Shown in pieces: positions 18,549 through 34,710 of a DNA stretch of 39,911 bases. Where the stretch lies: positions 1-39,911 of the IMG/VR virus record IMGVR_UViG_3300009103_000066. One strand, written 5' to 3'. How positions within the stretch are numbered: the stretch's first letter is position 1; every line of letters begins with the position of its first letter. Source of the stretch: a virus. The notes beneath the pieces were generated by a model, which worked only from the letters and a program-made list of their open reading frames with translations, was not told where the DNA came from and made no database searches. The position numbers and the translations under genes were made by a program.

Positions 18549-21266
18549 GTGTTGCGCCTGGGCTCCGCGCCAATGATGCCGGGCTCACCGAGGGTACGAG
18601 CGCAAGCATCTCACCAGATGCTGGATCCGCGGCCGTGGCGGGAGAGGGTCAGCCGCTCTCCGGTCGCTGCGACTGGTGGCTTGCTGGGCGCAGCCAGTGC
18701 CACGACTCCGCACTACCTCGGCGGCCTCGCACTCGAGGCTGCGTCGGGCTTCCCGGCCGCTCGAGATCCAGAGCGCGAGCGTTGGGGCCCGGAGTTCTTC
18801 CAGGCCGCAGGCCCGCTCCCCTTCAACCCGCTCGGTGCAGTCGACGAGATCCTCGCGACGTTCGAAGGCGCAGACCAGCAGGTTGATCGCTTGCCGTTCG
18901 GGCCCGAGGCGCGAGCACTGATGGAAGGCGCGCAGCAGCACGCGACCGATGTCGGCGTGCCGATGCCGTTGCAGTTTGCCGCGGAGATGGCTGCGCCCGA
19001 CGTGACGGGCAAGGTCGGCGCGCTTGCGGGTGTCGCCGGCAAGCTGTTCGGGCCCGCTGGTGCGCTGTCAGGCGCTGCGGGGAAGCTATCCGGTCTCGGT
19101 GCGATAGAGCTCCTCGAGATGATGGCCCCGATTGCGGGCTTCACTGCGGCCCGCAAGCCCTGGTCGATCAACCCGAAGACGGGCCGGCTCGGGACCGACT
19201 CGGATTACATCGGAGACTCTAACTACGGCGAAGGCGCTACGGCGTACACCAGCGGCCACTACATGGGCGAGCATGAAGGCACCGCGCATTGGTACCAGGG
19301 GAACTTCGCGAGGGATCAAGTAGCACAAGGTGAAGGGTTCGAGACGGTCTACTTCACACCAGACGGCGACGAGATCGACGTCGAGTCGCTGCCAACGATT
19401 GAGCAGGACGCCCTCGAGTACTCGCAGATGTCCCCGACAGAAGCGCGTCGCATGTTCGACATCCGACGTGGCGTGTTCGGCCTAGCACCGCTCGACGACG
19501 AATCTGCACGGATGATGGATCTCGCGGACAAGTACAGGGACGAGGGGTATCGGGTCACCGATCGCCGAGCTCCGCAGCCCCCGGTGTACGGTCAGCAGTT
19601 CGACGTGTTCGAAGACGAGCTAATCGATCTCAACAAGACAGCGACCGAGCAACCCCGTTTCGAGGCGGTCGCCAGGGAATTGCTGGACGAGCTCAACCTT
19701 GAGGATTTCGAGTACCAGATACTCGATGAATCAGCCCTTAACGTCTACAACTTCATCGCACAGAGGATGTTTGGCGAGAGGGTTCCTCATCCGCACCTGG
19801 AGGGGGAGACAACCCTCAGGGCGACACAGCGGTCCAAGAGGGAACTGTCCAATCTGCTCGCCGAACGCGGGATCCTCGGTGCTCAGTACTTCGACGAACT
19901 GAGTCGTGGCGGCAATATCAAGTTCTCGATTGGCCCGGAAATCATCGAGCCGGGGTGGGAATGGGGTGGCGCTCACAACGCACCGATGAGTGCGGTTGAT
20001 CAGCTCGATGCAGAAGAAGCCGCCCTGCTTTCCCTCGAGAACGCGGTAGACCGGAGGGCGTCGACCGAGCTCGACGATGCGCTCTGGGAGGAAGTTCGGT
20101 CAGACCTCCTGCGACGCTCGGAGCGCGGTGACCCTGATGCAGGCAACGCTCTCGATCTGGTTGACCAGTGGAGAGCGGACGGGATGAAGATGTCTCGCCG
20201 GACGCGGAACTACGTTTCGTACCTGGACGAGCACAACTACGTAGACCCCGACCGAACGGATCCGCGGCTGATCGGTGACGCCCCGATCGGCGAGCCTTGG
20301 CGCACTACGCCGATCCGGCAGGCCAAGGACTTCGCAGGCGCAGACACGATCGGCATGGCGATGGACGATGCCGAGACTGTCACAGCCCGCGAGACAGACC
20401 CGGAGGTGATCGAGTGGCTGCGGTCCCAGGGCCAAGACATCGAAGCATCCGACGTGCTCGAGGCTCCCGCTTCAGAGATCGCCAACGCCGACCACTACCA
20501 CGCGAGCCCGGTGTGCAAGAACCTGTCGTGCGCGAAGGTCGGTCGGAACCTCGATGCCCTCGACGAAGCGAGTGCCCAGAAGGTCGCAGACAACATCGGG
20601 GAGGCGCTTCCGCCTGCCGTAACCGTCGAGAACGTCCCCGACTATCAGGACACGGTCCTGATGGACGACATCACCAACACGCTGGACGACGAGGGATACC
20701 TCTGGGATGTCGTCGAGATAGATGCAGCCGACTACGGGGGCGCGAGCTCGCGCAAGCGCATGATCCTGCGGGCGGTACGCGAGGGTGAGCTGCCGCCTCT
20801 GCCCGAGAAGACGGGCCCCACCGACTGGTACGAGACGATTGAGGACTTGATCGACGACGCGCCAGACAGCGAGTTTAGTGGCACAGGCGGAAACCCGAAC
20901 AAGGAGCTCGAGGGTATACGAGAACGATTCGCCACTTTCGAGAGAACCAACGGCAAGCACGGACTTGATCCAAGCCAGCCCGTGATCACGATGGGCGGGT
21001 GGAAGTCTGCTCGCAACCCTGGGAAAGCGGCTCCGACACTTCCCGCAAGCAATCAATTGCCTCGGATCATCATGCCAGACGGGCGGATCAAACAAGTCAC
21101 GCCGCGCATGATGGCCCGGCTCATGGGCATCGCAGACGATGTCCCGCTTCCCGACGACTACTACCTCGCGAAGAAGGTGCTCGGCAACGGCATCCACGGT
21201 GAGGTGACGAGGCAGATCATCCAGCCCGTCGCCGAGGCCGGAAGGCGAATGAGGACGAAGCCCTGA
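18549..21266 (+). CDS. Polyvalent-type protein with C5 cytosine methyltransferase domain (905 aa)
   Basis: Residues 590-900 hold a full C5 DNA methyltransferase: motif I-like DFAGADTIGMAM (about 593-604), motif IV SPVCKNLS with catalytic cysteine near 656, motif VI ENV (694-696), motif VIII ADYGGASSRKRMILRA (about 728-743), and the target-recognition end with TPRMMARLMGI and VLGNGIHGEV (GN near 879). In front lies a 580-residue part. Residues 30-200 are Gly/Ala-rich and hydrophobic. Residues 224-252 (GEGATAYTSGHYMGEHEG) recall large polyvalent-protein-associated domains of phage proteins that travel in the virion. It probably methylates cytosines in phage or host DNA, perhaps protecting incoming DNA. 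The start is uncertain: GTG 18549 or ATG 18573. Confidence 0.8.
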   Translation: MLRLGSAPMMPGSPRVRAQASHQMLDPRPWRERVSRSPVAATGGLLGAASATTPHYLGGLALEAASGFPAARDPERERWGPEFFQAAGPLPFNPLGAVDEILATFEGADQQVDRLPFGPEARALMEGAQQHATDVGVPMPLQFAAEMAAPDVTGKVGALAGVAGKLFGPAGALSGAAGKLSGLGAIELLEMMAPIAGFTAARKPWSINPKTGRLGTDSDYIGDSNYGEGATAYTSGHYMGEHEGTAHWYQGNFARDQVAQGEGFETVYFTPDGDEIDVESLPTIEQDALEYSQMSPTEARRMFDIRRGVFGLAPLDDESARMMDLADKYRDEGYRVTDRRAPQPPVYGQQFDVFEDELIDLNKTATEQPRFEAVARELLDELNLEDFEYQILDESALNVYNFIAQRMFGERVPHPHLEGETTLRATQRSKRELSNLLAERGILGAQYFDELSRGGNIKFSIGPEIIEPGWEWGGAHNAPMSAVDQLDAEEAALLSLENAVDRRASTELDDALWEEVRSDLLRRSERGDPDAGNALDLVDQWRADGMKMSRRTRNYVSYLDEHNYVDPDRTDPRLIGDAPIGEPWRTTPIRQAKDFAGADTIGMAMDDAETVTARETDPEVIEWLRSQGQDIEASDVLEAPASEIANADHYHASPVCKNLSCAKVGRNLDALDEASAQKVADNIGEALPPAVTVENVPDYQDTVLMDDITNTLDDEGYLWDVVEIDAADYGGASSRKRMILRAVREGELPPLPEKTGPTDWYETIEDLIDDAPDSEFSGTGGNPNKELEGIRERFATFERTNGKHGLDPSQPVITMGGWKSARNPGKAAPTLPASNQLPRIIMPDGRIKQVTPRMMARLMGIADDVPLPDDYYLAKKVLGNGIHGEVTRQIIQPVAEAGRRMRTKP

Positions 21267-29821: not shown

Positions 29822-30814
29822 ATGGCTGTGACCAATACCTACGACCAAACGATGGTCAGTCAGCGAGAGGATCTCGCGGACTTCATCTACAACATCGACC
29901 CGGTTCGGACGCCGATGCTCCAGGCGGCTGAGTGGACGACCGCGAGCTCAGTCACCCATGAGTGGACCGAGGATTCGCTCACCGCTGCCGCCGCAGACAA
30001 CGAGTGGAAGGAAGGCGAGGCGATGGACGCCTCTGCGGTCACTTCCGGTACTCGTCTCGGCAACTTTGCCCAGATCAGCCGGAAGGACTACGGCGTGTCT
30101 GGAACGGCAGAGGTGGTCAGCAAGGCCGGTCGCGACTCCGAGATCGCTCTCGGTCAGGCGAAGGCCATGCGCGAGCTGAAGCGGGACATGGACGCCGTCA
30201 TTTCGAAGAGCAACCACGCGAAGCGGGTTGCATCCAATGCGAACGAGCCGCGCCTCGCGAGTCTGGAGTGCTGGGTTCGTAACGCATCGCGCGGGACCGG
30301 AGGTGCTGACCCGACGGATTTCGACGGGACTGCCGTCGACACGTCGGCGGCCGACGCGGACTGTCGCGCCTTCACGCAGACGCTTCTGGATTCGGTCATC
30401 GAGGACTGCTGGACGAACGGAGGCAAGCCTTCCCTGCTCATCATGGGGCCGGCGGGTCGCAACCAGTTCAACACGTTCGACGGTCTCGCGAACCTGAAGA
30501 CCAACTCGATCCAGCGCAGCGATCGGTCGGACGGCACGGTCTACGGATCGGTGGACGTCTACCTGTCGGGCTTCGGCATCGAGCTCCGAGCGGTCAACTC
30601 CCCGCACCTTCGCCAGAACGGGCTCACCCCTGCGAAGGATCGCGATGCGTGGCTCATCGATCCCGAGCACCTGAAGGTTCCGTTCCTGCGGTCCTTCGAA
30701 GTCATCGACTTCGCGAAGGTCGGAGACTCGATCGAGCAGGGCGTGCTGGCTCAGTACACCCTCGAGGTGTGCAACACCTACGCGCACGGTCTGGTCGCTG
30801 ACATCGGCGGCTGA
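29822..30814 (+). CDS. Major capsid protein, DUF5309/SU10 type (330 aa)
   Basis: The N-terminus follows the DUF5309 pattern: QREDLADFIYNIDPVRTPML (16-35), SVTHEWTEDSL (about 44-54), RLGNFAQISRKDYGVSGTAE (about 79-98), then a long helix with MRELKRDMDAV and, near the C-terminus, HLRQNGLTP and D-x-x-x-L-I-D-P-E-H segments. This family has the HK97 fold and builds the icosahedral shell. A GAGAGGGA ribosome site precedes the ATG. A hairpin follows the gene, as expected for a highly expressed message. Confidence 0.93.
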   Translation: MAVTNTYDQTMVSQREDLADFIYNIDPVRTPMLQAAEWTTASSVTHEWTEDSLTAAAADNEWKEGEAMDASAVTSGTRLGNFAQISRKDYGVSGTAEVVSKAGRDSEIALGQAKAMRELKRDMDAVISKSNHAKRVASNANEPRLASLECWVRNASRGTGGADPTDFDGTAVDTSAADADCRAFTQTLLDSVIEDCWTNGGKPSLLIMGPAGRNQFNTFDGLANLKTNSIQRSDRSDGTVYGSVDVYLSGFGIELRAVNSPHLRQNGLTPAKDRDAWLIDPEHLKVPFLRSFEVIDFAKVGDSIEQGVLAQYTLEVCNTYAHGLVADIGG

Positions 30815-30911: not shown

Positions 30912-31340
30912 ATGCCCCTCAAGAAGCGCAACTTCGTCCGATCTATCGGGTCTGTCACGGCGGGCACCTATTCGGACGAGGTCGACATGTCGAACGTCAC
31001 GCGCGGCGTCCTGTACGTCACGCCGGACTCGTCGTATTCGGCGAACTTCGACATCGAGGTCTACATGTCGCCGCAGGAGTTCGGGACCACGCCGACGTGG
31101 TACAGGCTCTGGGGTATCCACTGGCCCGACACCGTGATCGCGATCAACGTGGACGTCGGCTACAACCCATTCCTCGAGAACTCAGGGGGTCCGCAGGCGA
31201 TCCCGTTCCCGCTGCCGTACAAGATCTATGACGCAGACCGATCCTACTCATCCGAGTCGGTCACGCCACGGCGCATCCGGTTCCGGCCGGTAGGAACAGA
31301 CGTCTCCCTCTCGATCGAGGGGATGAGGATGGTCTCCTGA
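30912..31340 (+). CDS. Tandem family member 1 (142 aa), possible capsid decoration protein
   Basis: ATG with GGAGGG upstream. First of four adjacent paralogues. Shared marks: SIGSVTAGTYSDEVDMS at the N-terminus, SPQEFGTTPTWYRLWG in the middle, TPRRIRFRPVGTDVSLS at the C-terminus, all separated by beta-like segments. This member has the longest insert between the second and third marks. The fold is probably a small all-beta sandwich. Genes behind the capsid often encode decoration, head-fibre or stabilising proteins; that role is inferred. Confidence 0.6.
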   Translation: MPLKKRNFVRSIGSVTAGTYSDEVDMSNVTRGVLYVTPDSSYSANFDIEVYMSPQEFGTTPTWYRLWGIHWPDTVIAINVDVGYNPFLENSGGPQAIPFPLPYKIYDADRSYSSESVTPRRIRFRPVGTDVSLSIEGMRMVS

Positions 31341-31768
31341 TGCCGTTCGGGGCTCGAAAGATCGTTCACGAGTTCAGCGGTAGCCACCTGACGACGTCAT
31401 CACACCCAGAGGTTGATGCGTCGAGCTTTACTGATGCCCTGCTGCATTGCTCCAGGGCGTCCTCTCAGGAGATCAACATCCACCTAGAGGCCGCGCCAGA
31501 GGACTTCGGGACAAGCCCAAGCTGGCACCGCCTCTATCGAGGCCAAGGTCAAGCCACGGCGCTGCACAACATCGTAGGAGACATGACGTTCACCTGGACG
31601 ACATCGATGCCGAACTCCATCACCATCAGCTTCCCTTGTGAGGTGGACGTTGCTGGAACAGATGCAGACTTTGGATTCATTGACCAGAGGGTTCCGAGAA
31701 GGTTTCGAATCGTGAAGAGTCAGAACATGAGCGGGCTTGCGGTGGAGCTCACCAGGAGACGCGCCTAA
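31340..31768 (+). CDS. Tandem family member 2 (142 aa)
   Basis: The ATG overlaps the previous stop (TGATG). Shared marks: SSHPEVDASSFTDALLH, then AAPEDFGTSPSWHRLYRG, then PRRFRIVKSQ and a final hydrophobic strand. It diverges from its neighbours outside these marks, so the duplication is old. Function as for member 1. Confidence 0.6.
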   Translation: MPFGARKIVHEFSGSHLTTSSHPEVDASSFTDALLHCSRASSQEINIHLEAAPEDFGTSPSWHRLYRGQGQATALHNIVGDMTFTWTTSMPNSITISFPCEVDVAGTDADFGFIDQRVPRRFRIVKSQNMSGLAVELTRRRA

Positions 31769-32115
31769 TGCCGATGAAAGAAAGGCACTTCGTAGTCTCC
31801 CTGGGAGACATCTCTACCGGATCTGCATCCCCCGAGGTCGACCTATCGAGTGCAAACTGGGCCTATGTCTACGGGACAACGTCTGGCGCGAACACCAACA
31901 TTCGAGCAGAGGCTGCACCAGAAGAGTTCGGAACGAGTCCGACGTGGCACCTCTACGGGAACCAGATACAAATCCCAACCTCTGGGACGAGCTTCTGCCT
32001 TGCCATTCCGTTCGATGGGTACATCGATTTCGTGACACCGCAGAGGTTGCGGATCAAGGTGACGGCGGGTGCGCTCAACGACGCATACATCGAGGGCATC
32101 AGAGAAATCGGATGA
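31768..32115 (+). CDS. Tandem family member 3 (115 aa)
   Basis: The ATG overlaps the previous stop (TAATG). It has SLGDISTGSASPEVDLSS, AAPEEFGTSPTWHLYG and TPQRLRIKVTAG, matching members 1, 2 and 4 in order and spacing. It is the shortest form and so the best guess at the core domain. Confidence 0.6.
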   Translation: MPMKERHFVVSLGDISTGSASPEVDLSSANWAYVYGTTSGANTNIRAEAAPEEFGTSPTWHLYGNQIQIPTSGTSFCLAIPFDGYIDFVTPQRLRIKVTAGALNDAYIEGIREIG

Positions 32116-32492
32116 AGAAGCGGCACACAGCCGGAATCGATCTCGGCTCTGTTGCGTCCAGTGGGTCGAGCGCAGAAGCGGATCTCTCCTCGATGGACTC
32201 GGCGCTGGTCTACGTGACAACGGGATCTTCGTCGGGCAACTCTGTGTTCGCCCTCGAGGCTGCACCAGAGGACTTCGGTGAGACTCCGACGTGGGGTCTG
32301 TTGGGCACAGAGAACGTCACCCTCTCTGCTTCGACGTCTCGCGTTCTTCCGATGCAGAGGCTCGGTGCGATGCTTTTTAGCGGGGCGCACGCCACCGGAT
32401 CCACGACGTGCCCGAGGCGCTTCCGAGTCCGGCACATCAGTGGGTCGACGATCGAGAGCGTTTGGGTTGAGGGCGTGAGGTCGGTTGCATGA
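32112..32492 (+). CDS. Tandem family member 4 (126 aa)
   Basis: The start at ATG 32112 overlaps the previous stop (ATGA); a longer frame from 31737 is shadow of member 3. It has DLGSVASSGSSAEADLSS, AAPEDFGETPTWGLLG and CPRRFRVRHISG, closing the family array. The next gene again overlaps by four bases, so all members are in one translationally coupled run. Confidence 0.6.
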   Translation: MKKRHTAGIDLGSVASSGSSAEADLSSMDSALVYVTTGSSSGNSVFALEAAPEDFGETPTWGLLGTENVTLSASTSRVLPMQRLGAMLFSGAHATGSTTCPRRFRVRHISGSTIESVWVEGVRSVA

Positions 32493-32851
32493 ACTGGCAA
32501 ACGATATCTGACCCCGAAGAGATGACGAAGCGTGGCTCCCTGAGGACGAAGATCAAGATGGAGTCCGACGGGAAGACGATCACGACTCGTCATGAGCAAG
32601 ACGAGGACTACATACGCGAGATGTTGGAAGTCAACGTCGCGCTACAGAATGCAGACCGACGATCAACAAGCCTGTGGGACAACCGCAACCTCGTGCATGT
32701 CGCGCGGATCCCAGAGGAACTGATTCTGCGGTGGCAGATCGAGGAAGGAATCAACTTCTACCGTTGCTCAGATGAGGACAGGGCTCGCCTGTTCGCAAAG
32801 CTGAACGATGGAGACTACAGCAGGCTCAGGACAGCGCCTGGCCGCATCTAG
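32489..32851 (+). CDS. Head/neck-region hypothetical protein (120 aa)
   Basis: The product contains LVHVARIPEELILRWQIEEG (about 69-88) and a C-terminal RLFAKLNDGDYSRLRTAPGR. This pattern (His-Val-Ala-x-Ile-Pro, a Trp helix, then Lys-Leu-Asn-Asp-x-x-Tyr-x-x-Leu-Arg-Thr) recurs downstream of the capsid gene in podovirus-like genomes, where it has no assigned role. The N-terminus is charged. It starts inside the last tandem gene's stop (ATGA). Confidence 0.6.
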   Translation: MNWQTISDPEEMTKRGSLRTKIKMESDGKTITTRHEQDEDYIREMLEVNVALQNADRRSTSLWDNRNLVHVARIPEELILRWQIEEGINFYRCSDEDRARLFAKLNDGDYSRLRTAPGRI

Positions 32852-33315: not shown

Positions 33316-34041
33316 ATGGCCGCAATCACAAGCTACGACACGCTCAAGCAAGCCGTCACGCACTACACCGTGTTCGACGATTCGAGTGACATGTTCGAGA
33401 CGTTCCTGAGGCTCGCGGAGGATCGGTTCAACCGCGACCTGAGAGTCCCAGAGATGGTCGAGAACGATGTGGTAACGCTCGGTGCCCAGTCGACGTTCTT
33501 CGGCATCGACAAGGAAGACTTCGACGGTTCCCTGCCGACGCAGGACGTCATCGAGTTCATCGATGTCTCAAACGCGACATCGGGTGCTCTCAGGCTCATT
33601 CCGATGGAGAGGTTGATTCGACTGGCCTCGTATTGGGCCGCGACCGCGTTCGAGCCCGAGATGTATGCACTACAGGGTTCGAATATGTACTTCGCACCGA
33701 AGGCAGCAAGCAAGAGTGTCAACTTGGTGTACTACCGAAAGGTCACACCGATCACCTCTGCTTCTGATGCGAGCAATCACAACATGATCGCGAGGTATGG
33801 TGGACTGTACTTGTACGCCATTCTTCTCGAGGCTGCCGCCTTCATGAATGATCCAGAGAAGGAGATGTCCTACCTCAAGATGTACGAGAGGACGCGAGAC
33901 GTATTCAATGCTGGTGCAGCGCGGCGGGAACTGAACCCCTCGTTCGACCCGGCAGAGAGGCGGGACGCATCTCTGCCGCCCGCGTCCCAGCTTCCCGGGC
34001 AGAAGGAAGTCCGCGCCCTCAACGAATCAGGAGCTCTGTAG
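33316..34041 (+). CDS. Head-tail adaptor protein 1 (241 aa)
   Basis: The N-terminus ITSYDTLKQAVTHYTVFDDS, then FETFLRLAEDRFNRDLRVPEM, matches the phage adaptor family used beneath the portal in SU10-like and T7-like tails. A conserved FAPKAASKSVNLVYYRK block and a YLYAILLEAAAFM helix follow. The next gene is a clear paralogue. It would form the ring that joins the portal to the tail nozzle. Confidence 0.75.
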   Translation: MAAITSYDTLKQAVTHYTVFDDSSDMFETFLRLAEDRFNRDLRVPEMVENDVVTLGAQSTFFGIDKEDFDGSLPTQDVIEFIDVSNATSGALRLIPMERLIRLASYWAATAFEPEMYALQGSNMYFAPKAASKSVNLVYYRKVTPITSASDASNHNMIARYGGLYLYAILLEAAAFMNDPEKEMSYLKMYERTRDVFNAGAARRELNPSFDPAERRDASLPPASQLPGQKEVRALNESGAL

Positions 34042-34044
34042 AAC

Positions 34045-34710
34045 ATGGCCGCAATCGTAAACTACTCAACACTTCAGGATGCGGTGACGCAGTACCTGAT
34101 CCACTCGGACGACGCGGGCCTCTTCGACACCTTCCTGAAGCTCGCCGAGAACCGCTTCAACAAAGAGCTACGGGTGCGTGAACTCGTTTCTGACACGGTG
34201 GGCACCACAGGTGCGGGGTTCGTCAGCTCGAACACGACCCTCAGTGCCGACTTTGTCGAACCGATCGCAATCTACCTGAGCGCCCCCGTAGGAAACTCTG
34301 GTTCACTCAGTTACCTGCCACCGAACAAGTTCTTCAACTTGAAGTCCTCGCACAGCGGTACCGGGATCCCGAAGTACTACACGATCTTCGGGAATAAGAT
34401 GCACTTCTCGCCGTTCGGCACGTCCTGCACGGCGAACTGGCATTACTACAAGGAGCTCACGCCACTCACGTCGTCGAACGCAACGAACGAGCTCATGCCG
34501 AGCGCAGCGAACCTGTACCTGTACGGGGTGTTGCTCGAGGCGCAGCCCTTCCTGAACCAGCCAGAGAGGATCACCGAGTTCGAGTCGTTCTACGATCGGG
34601 CGAAGGACTCCCTGATCGCAGCCGACGCTCGTGCCCGGTTGCGCCCCGGTGTCGGTCAGAGGATGCGCGCATCTGGTGTAACGGCCGATGGGGTATTCCG
34701 TATCCCCTGA
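34045..34710 (+). CDS. Head-tail adaptor protein 2 (221 aa)
   Basis: It aligns with the preceding gene along most of its length: IVNYSTLQDAVTQYLIHSDD, FDTFLKLAENRFNKELRVREL, FSPFGTSCTANWHYYKELTP and YLYGVLLEAQPFL. A three-base gap separates the two genes; ATG follows a GGAG site. Two adaptors in tandem suggest a two-layer or mixed adaptor ring, or a duplication whose second copy took on a new role. The stop overlaps the nozzle ATG. Confidence 0.75.
   Translation: MAAIVNYSTLQDAVTQYLIHSDDAGLFDTFLKLAENRFNKELRVRELVSDTVGTTGAGFVSSNTTLSADFVEPIAIYLSAPVGNSGSLSYLPPNKFFNLKSSHSGTGIPKYYTIFGNKMHFSPFGTSCTANWHYYKELTPLTSSNATNELMPSAANLYLYGVLLEAQPFLNQPERITEFESFYDRAKDSLIAADARARLRPGVGQRMRASGVTADGVFRIP

Follow-up and report, generated by a model that had tools for sequence, protein, structure and literature searches.

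A tandem array of four paralogous genes behind the capsid gene of an SU10-type podophage probably encodes capsid decoration proteins

The window analysed here is the whole 39,911-base stretch of IMG/VR virus record IMGVR_UViG_3300009103_000066, and its plus strand carries head genes in the usual arrangement of terminase, portal, scaffold-like protein (a label given from place and composition alone), major capsid protein, four small genes (g1-g4), adaptor and nozzle (Table 1). The initial annotation had described four tandem genes with overlapping starts and stops behind the capsid gene, and its coordinates for them (30912-32492, plus strand) proved exact. SU10_MCP and SU10_adaptor genes flank the array, placing it in an SU10-type podophage head module. 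A gap of 97 bases separates the capsid gene from g1, all four frames are intact, successive genes overlap by 1 to 4 bases (TGATG, TAATG, ATGA), and g4 likewise overlaps the gene behind it (ATG at 32489); because of these overlaps, translation of g1-g4 is likely to be coupled. In the list of open reading frames, g4 begins farther upstream with a TTG (31737), whereas homology puts the start at 32112. Third-position G+C is consistent with coding (0.68-0.88 in g1-g4 vs. 0.82 in the capsid gene). The phrog_3982-like gene downstream of the array is followed by a 149-aa gene (no significant Pfam or PHROGs match), two SU10-type adaptors and a nozzle-like protein. The two adaptors are 38% identical (score reached by 0 of 1000 shuffles) and group in a tree (91/92), so the window phage has duplicated a neck-ring gene as well; mapped relatives show one. 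Elsewhere in the window, a protein of 905 aa (18549-21266) whose C-terminal part matches a DNA methyltransferase (phrog_116, E 6.3e-19) adjoins a 1026-aa protein that has no PHROGs match at E 0.001.

Table 1. Features of the array and its surroundings in the window.
Feature	Coordinates	Strand	Evidence or remark
Major capsid protein (SU10_MCP, HK97-type)	29822..30814	+	PF17236, E 2.1e-66; phrog_1328 major head protein, E 2.6e-64; directly upstream of g1
g1, paralogue 1, 142 aa, putative decoration protein, jelly-roll fold predicted, additional loops	30912..31340	+	
g1 signature SPQEFGTTPTW	31068..31100	+	Strand C-D connection; sequence, alignment, segment identity
g2, paralogue 2, 142 aa	31340..31768	+	
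g2 signature loop APEDFGTSPSW	31493..31525	+	Sequence, alignment
g3, paralogue 3, 115 aa, best-predicted member	31768..32115	+	
g3 signature loop APEEFGTSPTW	31915..31947	+	Sequence, alignment
g4, paralogue 4, 126 aa	32112..32492	+	
g4 signature loop APEDFGETPTW	32262..32294	+	Sequence, alignment
phrog_3982-like gene, function not assigned by family	32489..32851	+	E 5.2e-10; downstream boundary of the slot; same place in L043-L045 and L047-L053
Two SU10-type adaptor genes in tandem	33316-34041, 34045-34710	+	PF24175, E 5.7e-21 and 5.6e-21

The four genes are true paralogues, as had been proposed: blastp finds all six pairs (E 1e-10 to 1e-20), the local score of each pair was reached by 0 of 1000 shuffles, and pairwise identity is 30-40%. 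The motifs said to unite them are indeed shared, with corrections. 'PE(D/E)FG' is not universal, since g1 reads SPQEFGTTPTW; the S-x-E-V-D piece is present (SDEVD, HPEVD, SPEVD and SAEAD, with A and not V in g4) but lies at about residues 21-26 rather than at the extreme N-terminus; and the P-(R/Q)-R-(I/F/L)-R piece, likewise present, sits about 20 residues ahead of the C-terminus rather than at the end. Conservation peaks in the central motif, which forms the predicted strand C-D loop (72% pairwise identity, 43 of 60 cells). Pairwise identity is 17-25% in strands D and E and in the D-E and E-F loops, where most of the length changes lie, and the alignment shows the same core residues in g1, g2, g3 and g4. 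Between the copies pS is 0.65-0.72 (near saturation) and pN 0.43-0.51, with synonymous sites saturated; a close strain of the window phage was sought and none was found. Against Pfam and PHROGs, g1-g4 gave no family match of significance.

A tblastn search with g3 (E up to 1) returned zero matches in 50,697 phage records, and no relative was confirmed in viral contigs scanned with the family alignment and with g3, or in genome contigs scanned with two family alignments. Matches of g1 to neck proteins of large phages reached E of about 7-8 only and were judged to be chance. A DNA pattern for P[EQ][DE]FGxxP[TS]W picked out four stretches (L039-L042), also taken as chance: L039 had no match at the motif, and the matches of L040-L042 were weak (E 0.0012) and in a frame overlapping an open frame of 995 or 916 aa. 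The family is absent from the 30 distant loci reached by a first capsid scan, and relatives were reached solely with the nozzle protein as bait. Among loci L043-L128 (n=86), 47 hold both capsid and adaptor genes and give 44 distinct slot sequences between the two; two family members occur in four of these (the L047 group, L048, L050 and L052), one in a single slot (L053) and none in 39. Just 338-394 bases long, 24 of the 39 family-free slots have space for the phrog_3982-like gene only; in carriers, the family members lie between the capsid gene and the phrog_3982-like gene. Of 14 relative records searched in full, some of them fragments, 8 lack the family. The claim that a four-copy array is unusual is therefore borne out among the 44 distinct slots, where the maximum elsewhere is two members.

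At the signature position the relatives read SPDGGSTW or similar, so that the window's APEDFGTTPTW is a lengthened form. The Asp-box (BNR) is an S-x-D-x-G-x-x-W motif in a beta-hairpin, and the family profile weakly picks sialidases and reelin at the SPDGGSTW-type motif (E 0.012 and above). None of g1-g4 matches the F5/8 type C domain (PF00754), and 1 of 13 family members matches it below the cut-off (21.1 vs. 28.2 bits, E 3.5e-4). An insert some 70 residues long (GHTISTGGRVTISGTTNYNG...) lies close to the N-terminus of the first family member in L047 (4119-4658); it may resemble the small domains common in phage tail proteins.

The capsid-to-adaptor slot behaves as an exchangeable cassette site. 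Nine slots are about 1.25 kb long, and the three that were read (L107 5158-5853, L070 505-1191 and L121 5121-5968) hold two other small genes apiece, of 113-115 and 94-96 aa and beta-rich by eye, which are candidate non-homologous decoration proteins. The score of the first L107 slot gene against g3 was reached by 14 of 1000 shuffles, too weak to call, and the second shows no clear likeness to g3 (104 of 1000 shuffles reach the score). This second gene is related to a tandem paralogue pair of another family in L119 (3219-3494 and 3498-3797; 91 and 99 aa; 0 of 1000 shuffles), so that tandem small paralogues behind the capsid gene have arisen at least twice in the sample. The slots of L045 (1413-5009) and L043 (247-3915) carry genes of 154 aa (with a start that is signal-peptide-like by eye), 306-377 aa, 636-656 aa and 110-128 aa; the 636-656-aa gene has a Sulfatase domain (PF00884, E 1.6e-12, searched in L045 only), and a sulfatase is unusual within a phage head module. 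In L082 (2081-2818) and L092 (4393-5127), a 244-245-aa gene lies between the phrog_3982-like and adaptor genes; it reads VAxCIPTRGEMEVGTAFDLALMCGYDSRF near its start and is glycosyltransferase-like by eye.

A 13-member tree places all four window genes in a single clade (97/91) apart from every relative, which argues for tandem amplification in this lineage; an older amplification lost from the neighbours would be the other possible origin of the four copies. The forks inside the clade are weakly supported. The first copies of L047 and L050 are orthologous (95/95). The tree of capsid proteins pairs the window with L049 as its sister (100/99) and sets it next to L045, and the minimum number of presence/absence changes on this tree is two. 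L049, the nearest relative by capsid protein, is without the family, so the array genes are accessory, and L045 has a different cassette. When neighbours are compared, the capsid proteins are more similar to each other than the family copies are in 6 of 6 relative pairs (for L047-L050: MCP 65, copy a 57, copy b 44); since the adaptor is also less alike than the capsid protein in 6 of 6 pairs, and the phrog_3982-like gene in 4 of 6, this divergence is not special to the array.

AlphaFold2 models of g1 and g3, made with family alignments as input and resting on 11 and 13 sequences, predict jelly-roll-like beta-sandwiches for both. The g3 model (pLDDT 86.2, pTM 0.77) has seven strands; the g1 model (pLDDT 74.1, pTM 0.72) has eight strands of 3 or more residues and two stretches with pLDDT below 50 (69-77 and 83-91). 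Differing folds among the members had been named as a check on a common role, and the two modelled members do not differ in fold. With VIA-align, g1 matched 8fwg_l1 (Milano, Z 10.6), 9hz8_0 (7-7-1 capsid, 10.4) and YomS (10.3), the next match standing at 8.5; the Milano and 7-7-1 alignments cover 119 residues, with rmsd 4.2 and 4.5. For g3 the order was YomS (Z 10.8), a Klebsiella phage baseplate-cup protein (9.4), 8fwg_l1 (8.6) and 9hz8_0 (8.1), so that decoration proteins are not distinct from background, 7-7-1 being level with C1q-type folds (8.1). Foldseek placed 9hz8_0 at rank 2 for g3 and listed 8cjz_A (Carin1 capsid; E 4.9e-3, TM 0.47); 8cjz_B is deposited as 'Capsid Decoration Protein' and belongs to the Bbp16 family. 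By Foldseek alone, g1 met plant-virus coats first and Milano 41st, and g3 retrieved mainly uncharacterised viral proteins from BFVD (TM reaching about 0.7). Small beta-sandwiches resemble many unrelated folds, and the match lists are full of C1q, CBMs and plant-virus coats. We took 9hz8_0 as the decoration protein from its length and the paper (7-7-1 gp002 has 135 residues), and Milano chain l1 is presumably gp10, going by length and the paper's description.

These results suggest that g1-g4 are probably four paralogous capsid decoration (cement) proteins of an SU10-type podophage; their position, size and fold fit the cement role of Bbp16 and of the Milano and 7-7-1 proteins, and we therefore read them as shell decorations. 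Of the suggestion that the array builds decorations or fibres on the head, the first part agrees with position, fold and synteny, the location itself being putative and drawn from genes and models; fibres find nothing in support, because the proteins are single small domains. Hetero-oligomers and diversifying selection for surface display, which had also been suggested, would be conjectural for these copies. Most likely, each protein would be a small jelly-roll-like beta-sandwich that binds the outer face of the capsid shell, with the conserved N-terminal strand, the C-D signature loop and the P-R/Q-R-x-R strand making up a common core or docking side, and the loops of varying length from strand D to strand F would face outward. 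The genes would be translated as a coupled block right after the capsid gene. They arose by tandem duplication within the phage lineage, starting from an accessory slot in which relatives have no copy, a single copy or two. The four copies could each take their own quasi-equivalent sites, mix at random in one coat, or display differing binding loops on one core; the conserved core and length-variable D-F region would fit the random mixture or the differing loops. A mosaic coat, in which shared docking is combined with different quasi-equivalent positions or a random mix and the D-F loops give several weak specificities, is a tentative proposal, possible rather than probable; if true, it would be a combinatorial surface built by gene duplication.

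The main rival explanation, which we consider unlikely, holds that g1-g4 are neck, collar or tail-attached beta-sandwich proteins, such as short whiskers or receptor-binding modules. The slot lies between the capsid and adaptor genes, the g3 model matches the Klebsiella phage baseplate-cup protein (Z 9.4), and one relative gives a weak, sub-threshold match (E 3.5e-4) to the F5/8 type C domain, a fold that serves glycan binding. The jellyroll collar protein gp13 of Milano places such a fold also at the neck (PMC10491603). However, the genes of the same size and fold examined directly behind a podophage capsid gene are cement genes or their homologues (Bbp16 of BPP-1 and nine relatives), and the top matches of the g1 model are capsid decorations.

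It is also conceivable, though quite improbable in our judgement, that no more than one or two of the proteins play a structural part and the rest are assembly aids or redundant copies decaying without function. Four intact overlapping frames with third-position G+C of 0.68-0.88, and identical core residues kept in g1-g4, speak against decay, and about 30% identity without a frameshift would argue for long-retained function, as against the wide divergence of the copies (30-40% identity) and the absence of the family from L049, closest by capsid protein, which marks the genes as dispensable. That g1-g4 are soluble or secreted effectors unrelated to the particle and co-expressed with the head genes seems very improbable: while the sulfatase-domain gene and its signal-peptide-like neighbours (by eye) in L043/L045 indicate that genes for other than shell proteins can fill the slot, the N-termini of g1-g4 are not signal-peptide-like (by eye), and the fold matches of g1 and g3 favour virion proteins. 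With g1-g4 as probable capsid decorations, the analysis defines an unnamed family from six distinct sources, placed in a recognisable capsid-to-adaptor slot that in other phages holds unrelated small genes, enzymes or nothing. Should all four reach the virion, the array would offer a system for the sorting of paralogous decorations among quasi-equivalent sites, and would let one ask what extra copies buy the phage.

Among known systems, Bbp16 of BPP-1 is a jelly-roll cement protein that infectious particles require and that sits as dimers on the shell, with eight strands and a C-terminal extension (PMC3863775). Its family (PF21190, phrog_427) includes the epsilon15 gp8 gene and Carin1 8cjz, and in BPP-1, as in 9 of 9 other loci, a Bbp16-type cement gene comes immediately after the capsid gene (for L137 and L143 the preceding gene has just a hypothetical annotation and was taken as capsid by size and place). 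In the same way, g1 lies immediately downstream of a podophage capsid gene and is predicted to be a small beta-sandwich or jelly-roll; its model has eight strands and that of g3 seven, compared with eight in Bbp16. Each of the 84 phage records that match Bbp16 does so at a single place, whereas the window has four copies. Searches of g1-g4 against Pfam Bbp16 and phrog_427 gave zero matches, and the L053 copy alone, of 13 members scanned, matches Bbp16 (20.6 bits vs. a cut-off of 27.1, E 5.6e-4). Membership in the Bbp16 sequence family was rejected on hhalign comparisons of two family alignments with a 10-member Bbp16 alignment (Prob 0.5% and 0.9%); a single-sequence comparison looked better aligned (P 0.0071, Prob 5.4%). 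On present evidence, the array proteins thus appear to form a family of their own despite a probably cement-like way of working.

The closest solved decoration folds to g1, and among the closest to g3, are Milano gp10 and 7-7-1 gp002, which like the array proteins are small and jellyroll-like or beta-rich (identity to the models 9-11%). In Milano, capsomer interfaces are cemented by a dimer of the jellyroll-like minor capsid protein, for which the authors suggest an additional role in weak binding to cell-surface components (PMC10491603), and the 135-aa decoration protein of 7-7-1 forms dimers that bridge capsomers (PMC12796354). Unlike the window podophage, Milano and 7-7-1 have contractile tails and T=9 heads, and the passages cited name for each one such protein, held with unrelated linker proteins (PMC10491603, PMC12796354). 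The C-terminal domain of YomS/XepA from B. subtilis prophages gave the best Z for g3 and the third for g1. These proteins are pentameric and their authors suggest a place at the capsid vertex; XepA, however, was not found in mature phage, and YomS is a prophage lytic-cassette protein whose head role is unproven (PMC6834076). The literature searched, which covers few subscription journals, listed no report of tandem paralogous jelly-roll decorations. As proposed for the window phage, Shigella phage Sf14 has more than one kind of decoration per head (gp33 and gp20), but these have unrelated folds, a beta-tulip and a Hoc-like one, unlike the paralogues of the window (PMC11821841).
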